Shown in pieces: positions 43,363-54,298 of a DNA stretch of 54,298 nt. The stretch is taken from the NCBI RefSeq assembly GCF_016863615.1, contig NZ_BOPF01000055.1, positions 1 to 54,298 on the forward strand. Direction: 5' to 3'. The translations under genes and the position numbers were made by a program. The DNA is from Virgisporangium aliadipatigenens. Lineage in GTDB: Bacteria; Actinomycetota; Actinomycetes; Mycobacteriales; Micromonosporaceae. The notes below the pieces were generated by a model, which worked only from the letters and a program-made list of their open reading frames with translations, was not told the DNA's origin and did no database searches. Every line of letters begins with the position of its first letter. The stretch's first letter is position 1.

Positions 43363-43425
43363 TCAAATCGTTGCCCCTCGGTCGGCGTGGCGTGCGATAG
43401 CGCGCACTCGGTATGGTCTACATCC

Positions 43426-45195
43426 ATGTCGGCCGAGGGCACGGAACGTAGCAACGGACCGGCGCCTGCCCTGCTGTGGGGCGGCGTCGGGACGGCACCC
43501 GTCGGTGGCCTCCTGCTGGTGGCCGGCGGGGACGGATTTCTCCTGCGTGTGGGCGCTTTCTTCCTCATGGTGGCCGTCATTCTGGTCGCCGTGGGAGCGC
43601 TCCTCGCCCGCCGCCGGGCCGGTGACCGAGGCGGCATGGAGGGTTACGTAGAGGAAGAGATCGAAGCTCTCCGTGACGATCTCCGGGCCGATATCGCGCA
43701 CGCGGCCAAGGCCACCCACCGTTCGCTCGCCGAACGGGTCTCCGCGCTCACCGACACCGTCGAGGCGCTGCGCGGCCAGATCGAGGTGCTGCGTGCGCAC
43801 GTCGAGCGCAGCCACCTGAACGCCCCACCGGCCCCGCAGGCGCCGGCCCCGGCCCCCGTGCAGGCGAGCGCCGGTGTGGTGCATCACACGGAGACGGTCC
43901 ACGTGACCCGGCAGACCTATGTGGACGACGGCGGCACCGTGTACGGGGCGGCCAAGCCGGTCGCCGTTCCGCAGCAGCGACGCGAGCCCGACCCGTACCA
44001 GGACCAGCCGGAACCGGCCCGGCGCAGCGCACCGGTCGGTCGCACCGAGCAGCGCATGGGCGAACGCCGCGCCAGCGCACGGGTCGACGAGCACGGCAGC
44101 GAGATGCACGTCAACGAGCGGCGCGCCGAGGTGCGGGTCGACCCGACGGCGGCCGAGATGCACGTAGAGGACCGGTGGGCGTCGTCGACGCACCGGCCGC
44201 CGCCCCCCGGCGAGGGGCCGACCGGCCGGCGCCGCCGCGGCGATGACGACGAGCCGAGCGGGCGTTGGGCCCAGGGCGGCGCTCCCGCACCGGGCCCCCC
44301 GTCCCGGCAGCCCGACGGCGAATGGGCCGGTGCCGCCCCGGTTTCCGCTCCGGGCGGCCGCCGCGCCGAGGGCGAGTGGGCCGGTGCGGCTCCCGTCTCC
44401 GGCGCCGGCCGTCGTGGTGACGCCGAGTGGTCCGGCGCCGCGCCCGTTTCCGGTGCCGGTCGCCGTGAGGGGGAACGCCCGCGCGGCTTCGACGGCGAAC
44501 GCACGGGCGGCCGGCGCGCGGCACCCGAGCCCCGCGTGTACGACGGCGGCTTCGACGCGGAACGCACGACCGGCCGACGCGCGCGTGCGCCCGAACCGGG
44601 TGGCGGCTTCTTCGCCGACGAGCACACCGGCGGCTTCTTCGAGGACGAGCCCGAACGCACCGGCCGCGCCCGGGTGGCACCACCGCCGGAACCGGCACCG
44701 GGCCGGGCCGCCCTGCCCGCCAACCCGTCCGGCGAGCCGGTCCCCGACTGGGCCACCGAACGCGGCACCGACGAGCGGGCCCGTACGCCGGTGGAGCAGC
44801 CGCGCCGCGGCGGCACGGAGTACGGCGGACGCCCGGGCGGCGGCGAGTACGGCGGCCGTCCGGCCGGTAGTGCGCGTCCGCCGGTCGAGTACGGCCCGCC
44901 CGTCAGTGGTCCTTCGGGTGGCGGTGAGTACGGCGGTCGTCCCGCCGGAAGCGCGCGTCCGCCGGGTGAGTACGGCCCGCCGGTCAGTGGTCCTTCTGGC
45001 GGCGGCGAGTACGGCGGCCGTCCGGCCGGAAGCGCGCGTCCGCCGGGTGAGTACGGCCGTCCGCCGGCCGGCAACGAGTACGGCGGCCAGCCGGGCTACG
45101 GGCCGGGTGAGTACGGCGGCGGCCGGTCGCGGGACGCCGACGACTACGACCAGCCCCCGCCGCGCGGCCGCCGCGCCGCCGACGACTGGGAGTAA
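43426..45195 (+). CDS. Membrane protein with coiled coil and long repetitive tail
   Basis: The 589-residue protein has two membrane helices (about 15-35 and 37-60), a coiled coil (about 68-125, EEEIEALRDDLRADI), then about 450 residues of low complexity. The tail includes EWAGAAPVSGxGRR-type repeats (about 300-350) and an 81-base tandem repeat near the end. It ends in acidic and Tyr-rich residues. A scaffolding or cell-envelope role is possible, but nothing in the sequence proves it. A TATGGT box lies eight bases before ATG 43426. Confidence 0.72.
   Translation: MSAEGTERSNGPAPALLWGGVGTAPVGGLLLVAGGDGFLLRVGAFFLMVAVILVAVGALLARRRAGDRGGMEGYVEEEIEALRDDLRADIAHAAKATHRSLAERVSALTDTVEALRGQIEVLRAHVERSHLNAPPAPQAPAPAPVQASAGVVHHTETVHVTRQTYVDDGGTVYGAAKPVAVPQQRREPDPYQDQPEPARRSAPVGRTEQRMGERRASARVDEHGSEMHVNERRAEVRVDPTAAEMHVEDRWASSTHRPPPPGEGPTGRRRRGDDDEPSGRWAQGGAPAPGPPSRQPDGEWAGAAPVSAPGGRRAEGEWAGAAPVSGAGRRGDAEWSGAAPVSGAGRREGERPRGFDGERTGGRRAAPEPRVYDGGFDAERTTGRRARAPEPGGGFFADEHTGGFFEDEPERTGRARVAPPPEPAPGRAALPANPSGEPVPDWATERGTDERARTPVEQPRRGGTEYGGRPGGGEYGGRPAGSARPPVEYGPPVSGPSGGGEYGGRPAGSARPPGEYGPPVSGPSGGGEYGGRPAGSARPPGEYGRPPAGNEYGGQPGYGPGEYGGGRSRDADDYDQPPPRGRRAADDWE
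44845..45060 (+). repeat. In-frame 81-bp tandem repeat
   Basis: Units begin at 44845, 44926 and 45007 (the last partial). Each encodes EYGGRPAGSARPPxEYGPP followed by VSGPSGGG. Copies are nearly identical at the DNA level, suggesting recent expansion or continuing slippage. Spacing is exactly 81 bases (27 codons). Confidence 0.85.
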
Positions 45196-50427: not shown

Positions 50428-53400
50428 GTGACGAGGGACGGCACGTCCGACGCCCGGGGCGGCGACCACGGCGATCGCGCTGATCAGGGTGATCACGCGG
50501 AACGTCTCGCGGCGAGCCCCGAGCAGCAGTGGAGATCCGCCGCGGACGCGGCCGGGGAGATCCTGCCGCCGCCCGGCGGGGAGCCGGTGCACCCGCCGGT
50601 CGATGAGGGCTGGCCGGACCTCGGGCGGCTTTCGGCCGTCGATCCGCTGACGATCTCGCGGCTCGCGTCCGGGCCGGAGTCCGCTGCGTCGCCGGAGGCC
50701 AGTGCCTCGTCGGCCTCCTCGACCTCCGGCGCTTCTTCGACTTCGCCGGAATCGGCCGCGTCCGCCACCTCGGCGGCCTCGTCCGCCTCGGCGGCCTCCT
50801 CCACCTCGGCAGGCTCCTCGACCTCGGCGGCCTCGGTGAGGTCGTCGGGTGAGGCGGTGGGGACCGACGATGCCGCCGGGTCTGCCGGTGGGGCATCCAG
50901 GGCCGGAAAAGCGCGGCGGGCGAGGAAGGCCACGGCACCCACGGCTCCTGCGGCGCCCGGGGAGTCCGGGCGGGCGTCGGACGGCCCGGCGTCGGCCGAA
51001 TCGGCGGCCGCTGCGGAATCCGAAGGGGCGGATGGCACGGCCGGGTCGGTGCCGTCGGGCGACGCCACGGCGGTGAGTCCGCCGGCGGCGGCCGGGCGGC
51101 GGCCGCGTCCCAGCCGGGCGCGGCGTGGCCGATCGGCCGGTGCTGCGGCGTCCACCCCGGCCGAGCCCACTTCGTTTGAGGCGACTTCATCCGAGTCCGC
51201 TGGGTTGGAGCCTGACCCCTTCGAGGCCGCCTCGCCGGGCGTAACCTCGGCGGGTGCGGCGTCCGGGCGGTCTCCGGCCGAGGTGGCGCCGCCTGCGGCT
51301 GGGCCGGCTTCTCCGGTTGAGCCTGCCTCCTTGGCTGAGCCTGCTTCTTCGGCTGATACGGCGCCGAGTGATGCGACGGCCGTGATTCCGGCGGTGGTGT
51401 CCGAGTCGGCCGGGTCTGAAGGTGCGGGAGCACCGGCTGATGCGACCGCCGTGATTCCGGCCGTGACCTCTGAGTGGCCGTCGGCTGAGGGGGTAACGGC
51501 CCCGGCCGATGCGACCTCGGTGATCCCGGCCGTGACCGCCGAGTCGGCAGAGTCCGATGGCGCGGCGCCGCCGGCCGATGCGACCACCGTGATTCCGGCC
51601 GTGACGACTGAGCGGCCGTCGGCCGAGGGAGTGACGGCGCCGGCGGATGCGACCACTGTGCTTCCGGCCGTGGCCGATGGCGCGCCGCCGCCGGCGGACG
51701 CGACCGCCGTGATTCCGGCCGTGACGGCTGAGCGGCCGTCGGCTGGGCCCGCGGCCCCGGCGGACGCGACCGCCGAGATTCCGGCCGTGACTTCCGCGCG
51801 GCCGCCGGCCGATGCGACCGCCGTCATCCCGGCGGTGGGGGGCGAGCGTCGCCCGGCGACCTCCCCGGCCGACGAGACCGTGATCATCCCCACGCCGCCC
51901 GCCGTCAACGCGGACGGCTTTCCGGTCTATCCGGACCCGCACCGTTCATCGGCGGAGCCGGAGCCGGCCCAACGGCCCACCGGCGCCCCGCCGGCGCAGG
52001 ACCCGACGACGGTCATCCCGACCGGCCGCCCACCGGCGCCCGACGCCACCATGATCGTTCCCTCCGGGCCGCTGCCGCCGGCCGAGCCCACGGTGATCCT
52101 TCCGATCGGTTCGCCGACGGCCGGTGACGCCACCGTCGTGGTGCCCGTCCCGGAAGCGGAGCGGGAGCCGCGCGAGGCCGATGAGCGGGCCGCTTACCAG
52201 GGGCCCGAGCGCCGGCGGCCGGCCCAGGCGAAGAAGCAGCAGGTCGACCTCTCCGGCATCGCCGAGCTGAAGGCGATCATGCGGATCCGGGCGTTCCGGC
52301 GGCTGTGGGCCGTGCTCAGTCTCTCCGCGCTCGGCGACTGGCTCGGCCTGCTGGCGACGTCGACGTTCGCGGCGGCCCAGGTGGACAACTCGCTGGCGAA
52401 AGGTGCCGCGTTCGGCACCGTCATCGCCGTGCGCCTGCTGCCGGCGCTGATCCTCGGGCCGATGGCGGGCGTGCTCGCGGACCGCTTCGACCGGCGCTTC
52501 ACGATGGCGGTCTGCGACGTCATCCGCTTCGTCTTCTTCCTGTCGATCCCGCTGGCGACGCTGTTCACGGACAATCCCGCGCTGGTCATCGGCTGGGCGG
52601 CGGTGGCGACGTTCGTCATCGAGGCCGTGGCGATGCTGTGGACGCCGGCCAAGGAAGCGGCCGTCCCCAACCTGGTGCCACGCGCCCGGTTGGAGGCGAC
52701 CAACCAGCTCAGCCTCGCCACGACGTACGGCGTGACCCCGGTCGCCGCGGCGCTGCTGCTCGCCGGCCTCAACTCGTTGCTCGGGCAGTGGGACGTGCCG
52801 GAGTGGGCCGAGGCCACCGACGTCGCGCTCTACTTCAACGCGCTGACGTTCCTGGCGAACGCCCTCATCGTCTTCTTCCTCATCCCGGAGATCAGCGGCC
52901 GGGCCGCCGCGACGGGACCCGGCGAGCGCAAACCGGGGATGCTGCGCGAGTTCCTGGAGGGCTGGAAGTTCGTCGGGCAGACCCCGCTGGTGCGCGGCCT
53001 CGTGCTCGGCATCCTGGGGGCGTTCGCCGGCGGCGGTGTCGTGGTCGGCACGGCCAACCTCTACGCGCGCGAACTGTACGGCGGCGACGCGGCGTTCTTC
53101 CTGCTGTTCGCGACGCTGTTCATCGGGCTGGCGGGCGGCATCGTGGCGGGGCCGCGGCTGGTCGGCGCGCTGTCGCGGCGGCGCTGGTTCGGGCTGTCGA
53201 TCATCCTGGCGGCGGGCTCCGTGATCGTGCTCGCGCTCGCGCCGCAGCTGGCGTTCGCGGTGACGGCGACGCTGTTCGTGGGCGCCGGTGCCGGGATGGC
53301 GTTCCTGTCCGGGACGACGCTGCTCGGTGGCGAGGTCGACGACGAGGTGCGCGGGCGGGCGTTCGCCGTGGTGCAGACGGGCGTGCGGGTGGTGCTGATG

Positions 53401-54298
53401 TTCACCATCGCGCTCTCCAGCACGTTGGTCGGTGCGGGCGGGCGGCCGACGTTCGACCTGGGGCCGTTCACGGTCGAACTGTCGACGACCCGCATCCTGC
53501 TGATCGTCGCCGGCGTCTGCGGCGTCATGGCCGGCGCCGGTGCGCTGAAGCAGATGGACGACAAGCACGGCGTGCCGCTGCTGGCCGACCTGTGGGCCTC
53601 CGTGCGCGGACGCCCGCTGGTGAAGGCCGAGCCGAAGCCGGTGCGCGGGCTGTTCCTGGTCTTCGAGGGCGGCGACGGCGCAGGCAAGTCGACGCAGGTG
53701 AACCTGCTGGCGGACGCGCTGCGGCGGGCCGGCCGGGACGTCGTGGTGACCCGCGAACCGGGCGCCACGACGGCGGGTGCGCAGATCCGGCGGCTGCTGC
53801 TGGAGGGCGAGGCGGTCGCGCCGCGCGCGGAGGCGCTGCTGTACGCGGCGGACCGCGCGCACCACGTCACCACGGTGGTGCGGCCGGCGCTGGATCGCGG
53901 CGCGGTGGTGATCAGTGACCGGTACGTCGACTCGTCGCTGGCGTACCAGGGGGCCGGCCGGACGCTTCCGGTGCAGGAGGTGGCCTGGTTGTCGGACTGG
54001 GCCACGGGTGGGCTCAAGCCGGACCTGGTCGTCCTGCTGGATCTCGACCCGGCGGTCGGGCTGCGGCGGGCGCTGTCCCGCTCGGGTGGCGCGGATCTGC
54101 TGGAGAGCGAGTCGCTGGCGTTCCACGAACGGGTCCGCTACCAGTTCCTCGACCTGGCCGCCAACGACTCGGGCCGCTACCTGGTGCTGGATGCCGAGCG
54201 CGAGCCGGAGCACGTCGCCTCCGTCGTGCTCGAACGGGTCGTCGAGCTGCTGCCGGCTCCGGACCGGTTCCAGCGAAGGAGCGATGACAGGGTGACCA
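50428..54298 (+). CDS. tmk: MFS-type membrane protein fused to thymidylate kinase, with long repetitive N-terminus (3' end outside window)
   Basis: The frame runs from GTG 50428 (GGGGAGG 10 bases upstream) to the window edge, at least 1290 codons. Residues 1 to about 605 are low-complexity: a Ser/Ala tract (about 85-140) and 13 [DE]xTxx[ILV]P motifs. Residues about 610-1060 form an MFS-like domain of about 12 helices. Residues from about 1075 are a thymidylate kinase: Walker A GGDGAGKS (about 1081), REPGA, and SDRYVDSSLAYQG. The kinase makes dTDP for DNA synthesis. Similar fusions occur in actinomycetes. GTG 54292 near the edge may be the start of the next gene. Confidence 0.92.
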   Translation, partial: MTRDGTSDARGGDHGDRADQGDHAERLAASPEQQWRSAADAAGEILPPPGGEPVHPPVDEGWPDLGRLSAVDPLTISRLASGPESAASPEASASSASSTSGASSTSPESAASATSAASSASAASSTSAGSSTSAASVRSSGEAVGTDDAAGSAGGASRAGKARRARKATAPTAPAAPGESGRASDGPASAESAAAAESEGADGTAGSVPSGDATAVSPPAAAGRRPRPSRARRGRSAGAAASTPAEPTSFEATSSESAGLEPDPFEAASPGVTSAGAASGRSPAEVAPPAAGPASPVEPASLAEPASSADTAPSDATAVIPAVVSESAGSEGAGAPADATAVIPAVTSEWPSAEGVTAPADATSVIPAVTAESAESDGAAPPADATTVIPAVTTERPSAEGVTAPADATTVLPAVADGAPPPADATAVIPAVTAERPSAGPAAPADATAEIPAVTSARPPADATAVIPAVGGERRPATSPADETVIIPTPPAVNADGFPVYPDPHRSSAEPEPAQRPTGAPPAQDPTTVIPTGRPPAPDATMIVPSGPLPPAEPTVILPIGSPTAGDATVVVPVPEAEREPREADERAAYQGPERRRPAQAKKQQVDLSGIAELKAIMRIRAFRRLWAVLSLSALGDWLGLLATSTFAAAQVDNSLAKGAAFGTVIAVRLLPALILGPMAGVLADRFDRRFTMAVCDVIRFVFFLSIPLATLFTDNPALVIGWAAVATFVIEAVAMLWTPAKEAAVPNLVPRARLEATNQLSLATTYGVTPVAAALLLAGLNSLLGQWDVPEWAEATDVALYFNALTFLANALIVFFLIPEISGRAAATGPGERKPGMLREFLEGWKFVGQTPLVRGLVLGILGAFAGGGVVVGTANLYARELYGGDAAFFLLFATLFIGLAGGIVAGPRLVGALSRRRWFGLSIILAAGSVIVLALAPQLAFAVTATLFVGAGAGMAFLSGTTLLGGEVDDEVRGRAFAVVQTGVRVVLMFTIALSSTLVGAGGRPTFDLGPFTVELSTTRILLIVAGVCGVMAGAGALKQMDDKHGVPLLADLWASVRGRPLVKAEPKPVRGLFLVFEGGDGAGKSTQVNLLADALRRAGRDVVVTREPGATTAGAQIRRLLLEGEAVAPRAEALLYAADRAHHVTTVVRPALDRGAVVISDRYVDSSLAYQGAGRTLPVQEVAWLSDWATGGLKPDLVVLLDLDPAVGLRRALSRSGGADLLESESLAFHERVRYQFLDLAANDSGRYLVLDAEREPEHVASVVLERVVELLPAPDRFQRRSDDRVT
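51370..52146 (+). repeat. Array of 13 DATxVIP-type motifs in the kinase fusion
   Basis: Variants include DATAVIP, DATSVIP, DATTVLP, DATAEIP, DETVIIP, DPTTVIP, DATMIVP, EPTVILP and DATVVVP. Thr, an aliphatic residue at +3 and Pro at +4 are constant; an acidic residue sits at -2 throughout. The first eight copies are spaced 12-24 codons apart and linked by AVTxER-like segments; the last five are more diverged. Confidence 0.85.

Follow-up and report, generated by a model that had tools for sequence, protein, structure and literature searches.

The Rv1747-type system is a membrane transporter regulated by a kinase and by FHA, with phospho-Thr signalling taking place at a transporter that itself carries the FHA domains. 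To our knowledge, there is no report of actinobacterial nucleotide supply being controlled by a Ser/Thr kinase together with FHA. In the GarA/OdhI systems, an acidic residue at -2, a Thr and a hydrophobic residue at +3 lie in a flexible tail, and the GarA site adjoins the protein’s own FHA domain. M. tuberculosis GarA is listed as phosphorylated at ETT(p)SVF (PMC4322841, Table 1), which fits the acidic-Thr-aliphatic core considered below except for F at +3, and its ETTS motif is given in PMC12321487; the GarA of the genome studied here has DVTSTL ahead of its FHA domain. The MFS-thymidylate kinase (dTMP kinase) fusion described in this study shares with GarA/OdhI the acidic -2, the Thr, the hydrophobic +3 and an apparently flexible tail, but it presents 13 such sites on an enzyme in which a domain profile search found no FHA domain. 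In contrast to Rv1747, the transporter-like fusion would bear the ligand and not the FHA domains.

The window (the whole stretch of DNA analysed, 54,298 nucleotides) is the complete contig C55 of a source genome of 10.3 Mb in 112 contigs. The fusion ORF (50428..54297, + strand) is open from a GTG start at 50428, located 9 nt 3’ of GGGGAGG (Shine-Dalgarno), to the contig end, which truncates its 3’ end and thus leaves the C-tail of this organism’s protein outside the sequence. Its first 604 amino acids (50428..52239, +) form the motif-bearing N-terminal tail, which is rich in A/S/P/T/D/E and looks disordered as judged on composition. This is followed by an MFS transporter-like domain (52279..53436, +; residues 618-1003, MFS_3 match) and a thymidylate kinase domain (53662..54219, +; residues 1079-1264) with the P-loop FEGGDGAGKST. 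The protein belongs to the TIGR00041 dTMP kinases (168.2 bits, cut-off 83.25) and also exceeds the cut-off of PF02223 (164.6 bits). At E <= 0.001 the core is matched in 300/300 family genomes (own included), not each verified as a full fusion, and in 146/148 class genomes, many of them through the kinase part alone. Tail length and motifs, on the other hand, are absent from the family model and vary among species. About 12 hydropathy maxima, read by eye from the hydropathy list of the core, fall in the MFS domain; if they correspond to as many membrane spans, the N- and C-tail would both be cytosolic, beside the kinase domain, which would account for the motif occurring at either terminus. A second, weak thymidylate-kinase-like match (G000:C32:55811-56359, in L266) scores 52 bits with Pfam (cut-off 27) and 53 bits with NCBIfam (cut-off 83); since the latter is under the cut-off, the fusion is the sole strong Tmk match in the source genome. 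A plasmid search with the N-terminal tail gave no match. Elsewhere in the window, another tandem array (44834-45058; a unit of 81 bases repeated 2.8 times, with 90% matches) lies within an ORF at about 43386-45192.

Codon-position GC is weak in the tail (0.74/0.73/0.83, vs 0.74/0.49/0.95 in the core), and the overlapping antisense ORF gives 0.76/0.72/0.81, so that sense and antisense are not told apart by GC. That the tail is translated rests instead on a frame continuous into the conserved core, on the Shine-Dalgarno-led GTG where relatives apparently start, and on the presence of the motif in the sense frame of relatives. Among the 109 other family genomes with loci read, the fusion apparently starts at ATC (105) or ATT (3), i.e., in 108/109 under a somewhat loose calling rule, with a Shine-Dalgarno-like sequence upstream (e.g., L034, L055, L106). 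In 42 of these genomes there is no in-frame ATG/GTG/TTG from the upstream stop to the conserved region. A strict GGAGG with an in-frame ATC 5-10 nt downstream is present at 98/109 loci, with a spacing of mostly 7-8 nt; the codons found next most often in that range are GAC (38) and GCC (30). The exceptions are the GTG of the window and an ATG in one genome. Initiation of the fusion might possibly be controlled via a rare start codon.

The initial annotation had placed thirteen motifs of the form [DE]-x-T-x-x-[ILV]-P at 51370-52146, and an exact in-frame search returns the same 13 matches, with the first base at 51370 and the last at 52146. They read DATAVIP (four copies), DATSVIP, DATTVIP, DATTVLP, DATAEIP, DETVIIP, DPTTVIP, DATMIVP, EPTVILP and DATVVVP. 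The Thr and the +4 Pro are invariant in the window, as had been claimed (13/13 each), and +3 is I (9), L (2) or V (2), while the Thr codon varies (ACC, ACG) and +1 drifts (A, S, T, V, M). Shuffling the residues of this 604-aa stretch 2000 times gave 0.09 matches on average and never more than 2, vs 13 observed, and the reversed strict motif has 0 matches in the tail. Pure chance is thus ruled out by the shuffles.

Copies 1-8, of the form D-A-T-x-[VE]-[IL]-P-A-V (51370..51837, +), lie inside a DNA tandem array covered by TRF rows at 51358-51870 and are therefore not independent. Such an array would fit neutral expansion of the motif repeats within a disordered tail, where they would be retained merely because the tail tolerates them. 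But five diverged copies, 9-13 (51871..52146, +), which vary in codons, stand outside the array, and at the second codon position copies 1-8 show 0.036 differences/site, compared with 0.349 in the preceding nine codons (gapless alignment).

Tails were compared across 181 genomes, one locus each, this set comprising the genomes with fetched tails and not all genomes searched; copies in one genome, and species in one genus, are not independent. Neither of the two further same-genus genomes has the strict motif; their tails are short and contain just a D-S-E-[AS]-T-T-R-R-I stretch. The motif is present in the C-tail of three other lineages: genus g65 of family f19, another family of the class (10/10 genomes; 46 copies vs 0.3 shuffled, mostly of the DETAVLP type), family f9 (5/7 genomes; 5 copies vs 0.07) and genus g29 of the window’s own family (13/50 genomes; 38 copies vs 1.4). 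Judging by the dTMP kinase tail of Streptomyces, g65 is probably that genus. The looser core [DE]xTxx[ILVM] occurs in g29 as 118 copies in 20 genomes, vs 10.4 shuffled. Its reversed form and its Ser version occur 6 times each; the Ala version, at 36 copies, is frequent too, which weighs against a phosphothreonine reading, with Ala residues in g29 roughly double the number of Thr. The reversed strict motif was found 0 times in g65 and 0 times in g29. Across 57 genomes from the remaining genera of the family, core counts stay at chance level (6, with 5.1 in shuffles; Ser 7, Ala 17), and there are 2 strict copies in 2 genomes. A further 51 genomes, from different families of the class, yielded 1 strict copy and 12 core copies in 11 genomes, vs 2.3 shuffled. 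Three loci from named records had no strict copy, and neither did the 60 N-terminal residues directly ahead of the core in any of the 180 genomes besides the window’s own. Absence in both same-genus genomes, together with the chance level in the 57 genomes, indicates that the motif is not required by the enzyme.

The initial annotation had named a lack of conservation beyond the DNA repeat as the observation that would speak against its reading; what we found are two same-genus genomes without the motif and three other lineages with it, an outcome that favours selection for the motif itself. The same-genus genomes without the motif are compatible with neutral expansion, as are the g29 tails, which are very variable and carry the strict motif in 13/50 genomes. 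However, recurrence at the opposite terminus in g29, g65 and f9 is not explained by repeat expansion in one gene, and it rules out that the motif is one local DNA repeat only. We therefore consider neutral expansion distinctly improbable. On the sequences compared, the motif array is patchy, yet it appears to have arisen at differing ends of one protein. The C-tails also share an element at their end, LADELLG in 10/10 g65 loci (L084-L093), L[AT]DEL[LF]G in 7/7 f9 loci (L057-L083) and a LEEMAE-like form in 29/50 g29 loci (L308-L357), which is possibly a candidate second binding site.

What fills the central X of [DE].X..[ILV]P was counted in 136 loci, a set which omits genome duplicates (L119, L122, L123), loci cut by contig ends (L221, L226) and the window (tested separately); some g29 genomes among its 126 ‘other’ loci are recounted in the g29 and 181-genome sets. 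The centre is T in 13/13 cases in the window, 46/51 in g65, 18/25 in the other loci and 38/49 in g29. It is S in 0/89 cases in the window, g65 and other loci together and in 1/49 in g29. Ser versions of the core number 0 in the window, 0 in g65, 1 in f9 and 6 in g29, vs 13, 49, 7 and 118 Thr versions, even though the two residues have similar frequencies in the tails. The weight that had been placed on the +4 Pro turned out to be too heavy: among the 118 g29 core copies this position is P in 38, R in 26, A in 14 and S in 11, a mixture which suggests that proline is a local habit. Across lineages, the acidic -2, the Thr and the aliphatic +3 are general and the proline at +4 is not. The sequence comparison thus gives good support to selection acting on a motif centred on Thr. 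The proposal of selection for the motif itself is thus backed by the excess of copies, by the Thr-over-Ser bias and by the recurrence in g29, g65 and f9.

Such constraint could also come from a short linear motif without phosphorylation, in which T-x-x-[ILV] would be bound by another domain and no kinase would be involved. Of constraint and phosphorylation, the former is what the sequences demonstrate, and this speaks for such a motif. But the Thr centre with Ser nearly absent and the resemblance to the GarA site argue against it, and we regard it as the least probable of the accounts considered here.

A tail targeted by a kinase without any FHA reader, in which multi-site phosphorylation would shift charge and exert direct control over either the dTMP kinase or the MFS portion, draws on published phosphosites. 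In M. smegmatis, pThr sites lying close to acidic residues and to termini and in membrane-associated proteins are preferentially altered when PstP is depleted (PMC6554272), and the acidic neighbours, terminal position and membrane protein of our tail match this description. In S. rimosus, the dTMP kinase is listed with three upregulated phosphosites at the late exponential stage (PMC9600765), the text giving the number of sites; regulated sites on this enzyme suit a kinase acting alone as well. On the other hand, the near-complete preference for Thr over Ser and the fixed aliphatic +3 surpass what charge regulation would need, although a strongly Thr-preferring kinase could yield the same pattern. 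The S. rimosus phosphosites overall are 53% Thr and 41% Ser (PMC9600765); set beside this, the Ser-poor centres lead us to prefer a Thr-only reader over a kinase alone, and the kinase-only tail seems unlikely to us.

Listed M. tuberculosis sites of the core type are few. By an eye count of the roughly 41 residue-level pThr sites in Table 1 of PMC4322841, 3 fit the core, Rv0497 ELT(p)GEI, GltA2 DDT(p)ATL and Rv3181c DST(p)DTL, and 1, Rv0497, whose site is followed by P, is a strict motif. Within that table, 3 of about 41 indicates that core-type sites are phosphorylated in an actinobacterium, yet as a small share, and that mycobacterial sites are not dominated by this type. FHA selectivity at +3 is described as controversial in the text of PMC4037201, and PMC3530509 has human kinases as its subject and no bearing on the tail motif. 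Among the titles and abstracts of the open-access matches listed, a body of literature with subscription journals mostly outside it, no such dTMP kinase tails are described, and searches of open-access papers with the motif letters found nothing. The sole paper found to bear on the dTMP kinase protein (PMC9600765) reports phosphosites only.

The source genome contains 43 Ser/Thr kinase matches (42 above cut-off) and 8 FHA matches. A DATxVxP-type DNA pattern has 15 matches in this genome, 8 of them in the fusion gene; the 7 beyond it compare with 6 for the control, so there is no excess outside the fusion gene. In ten g65 genomes, 17/27 matches of a [DE][DE]TxVLP DNA pattern are in the fusion gene (by position), and the reversed pattern has 2. 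The initial annotation had proposed a proteome search in other disordered tails. Disordered-like segments of 687 sampled proteins (drawn from 0.85 Mb of the 10.3-Mb genome, open frames called with a simple GC rule) held 6 copies where 3.1 were expected, which is no clear enrichment; these counts, like the pattern matches (7 vs 6), leave the motif as a general proteome feature unsupported. A DUF881 protein (G000:C3, about 264428-265831, in L152), encoded about 2 kb upstream of garA, accounts for 2/6 of these copies and has AEVTRPLP, ETTVALP and QATRPLP in its N-terminal part.

In 29 juxtamembrane linkers parsed from the 43 kinase matches, the strict motif occurs 2 times vs 0.3 expected. T..[ILV]P and S..[ILV]P are equally enriched in these linkers (9 vs 3.4 and 9 vs 3.5, respectively), and T.[VIE][ILVF]P occurs 6 times vs 0.4. 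The first 21 linkers had given T..[ILVF]P 11 vs 3.2 and its Ser version 6 vs 3.3, a Thr bias that is gone in the 29-linker set for T..[ILV]P. One Ser/Thr kinase (G000:C15, about 202441; L127, L251) carries DATSVLP and PTTVVP in the linker from its kinase domain to a predicted membrane segment; its DATSVLP is in frame and is one of the 7 DATxVxP-type matches beyond the fusion gene.

Overall, our preferred reading, to which we assign a probability of about 0.5, is that the tail is a multi-site pThr antenna on a membrane-bound dTMP kinase, targeted by Ser/Thr kinases and read by an FHA protein. The tail would be flexible and cytosolic, and each [DE]-x-T-x-x-[ILV] unit would be a Ser/Thr kinase target of the GarA type; we infer that its Thr residues may be phosphorylated. 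A phosphorylated unit would then dock an FHA-domain protein, and such putative docking by the tail motif is plausible, given the 43 kinase matches, the 8 FHA matches and the like-patterned GarA of this genome. Multiple copies would provide higher avidity or a graded switch. As an outcome, the dTMP kinase, and hence dTTP supply, would be coupled to a kinase-controlled membrane assembly, an effect that we likewise infer.

Beyond this locus, we suggest tentatively, and with some doubt, that actinobacteria may repeatedly have fitted dTMP kinase with GarA-like pThr docking arrays at a free terminus, through which kinases and an FHA scaffold would place or switch dTTP synthesis at the site of growth or replication. 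A recurring Thr motif on a DNA-synthesis enzyme offers a testable link from kinase signalling to dTTP production in laboratory streptomycetes.
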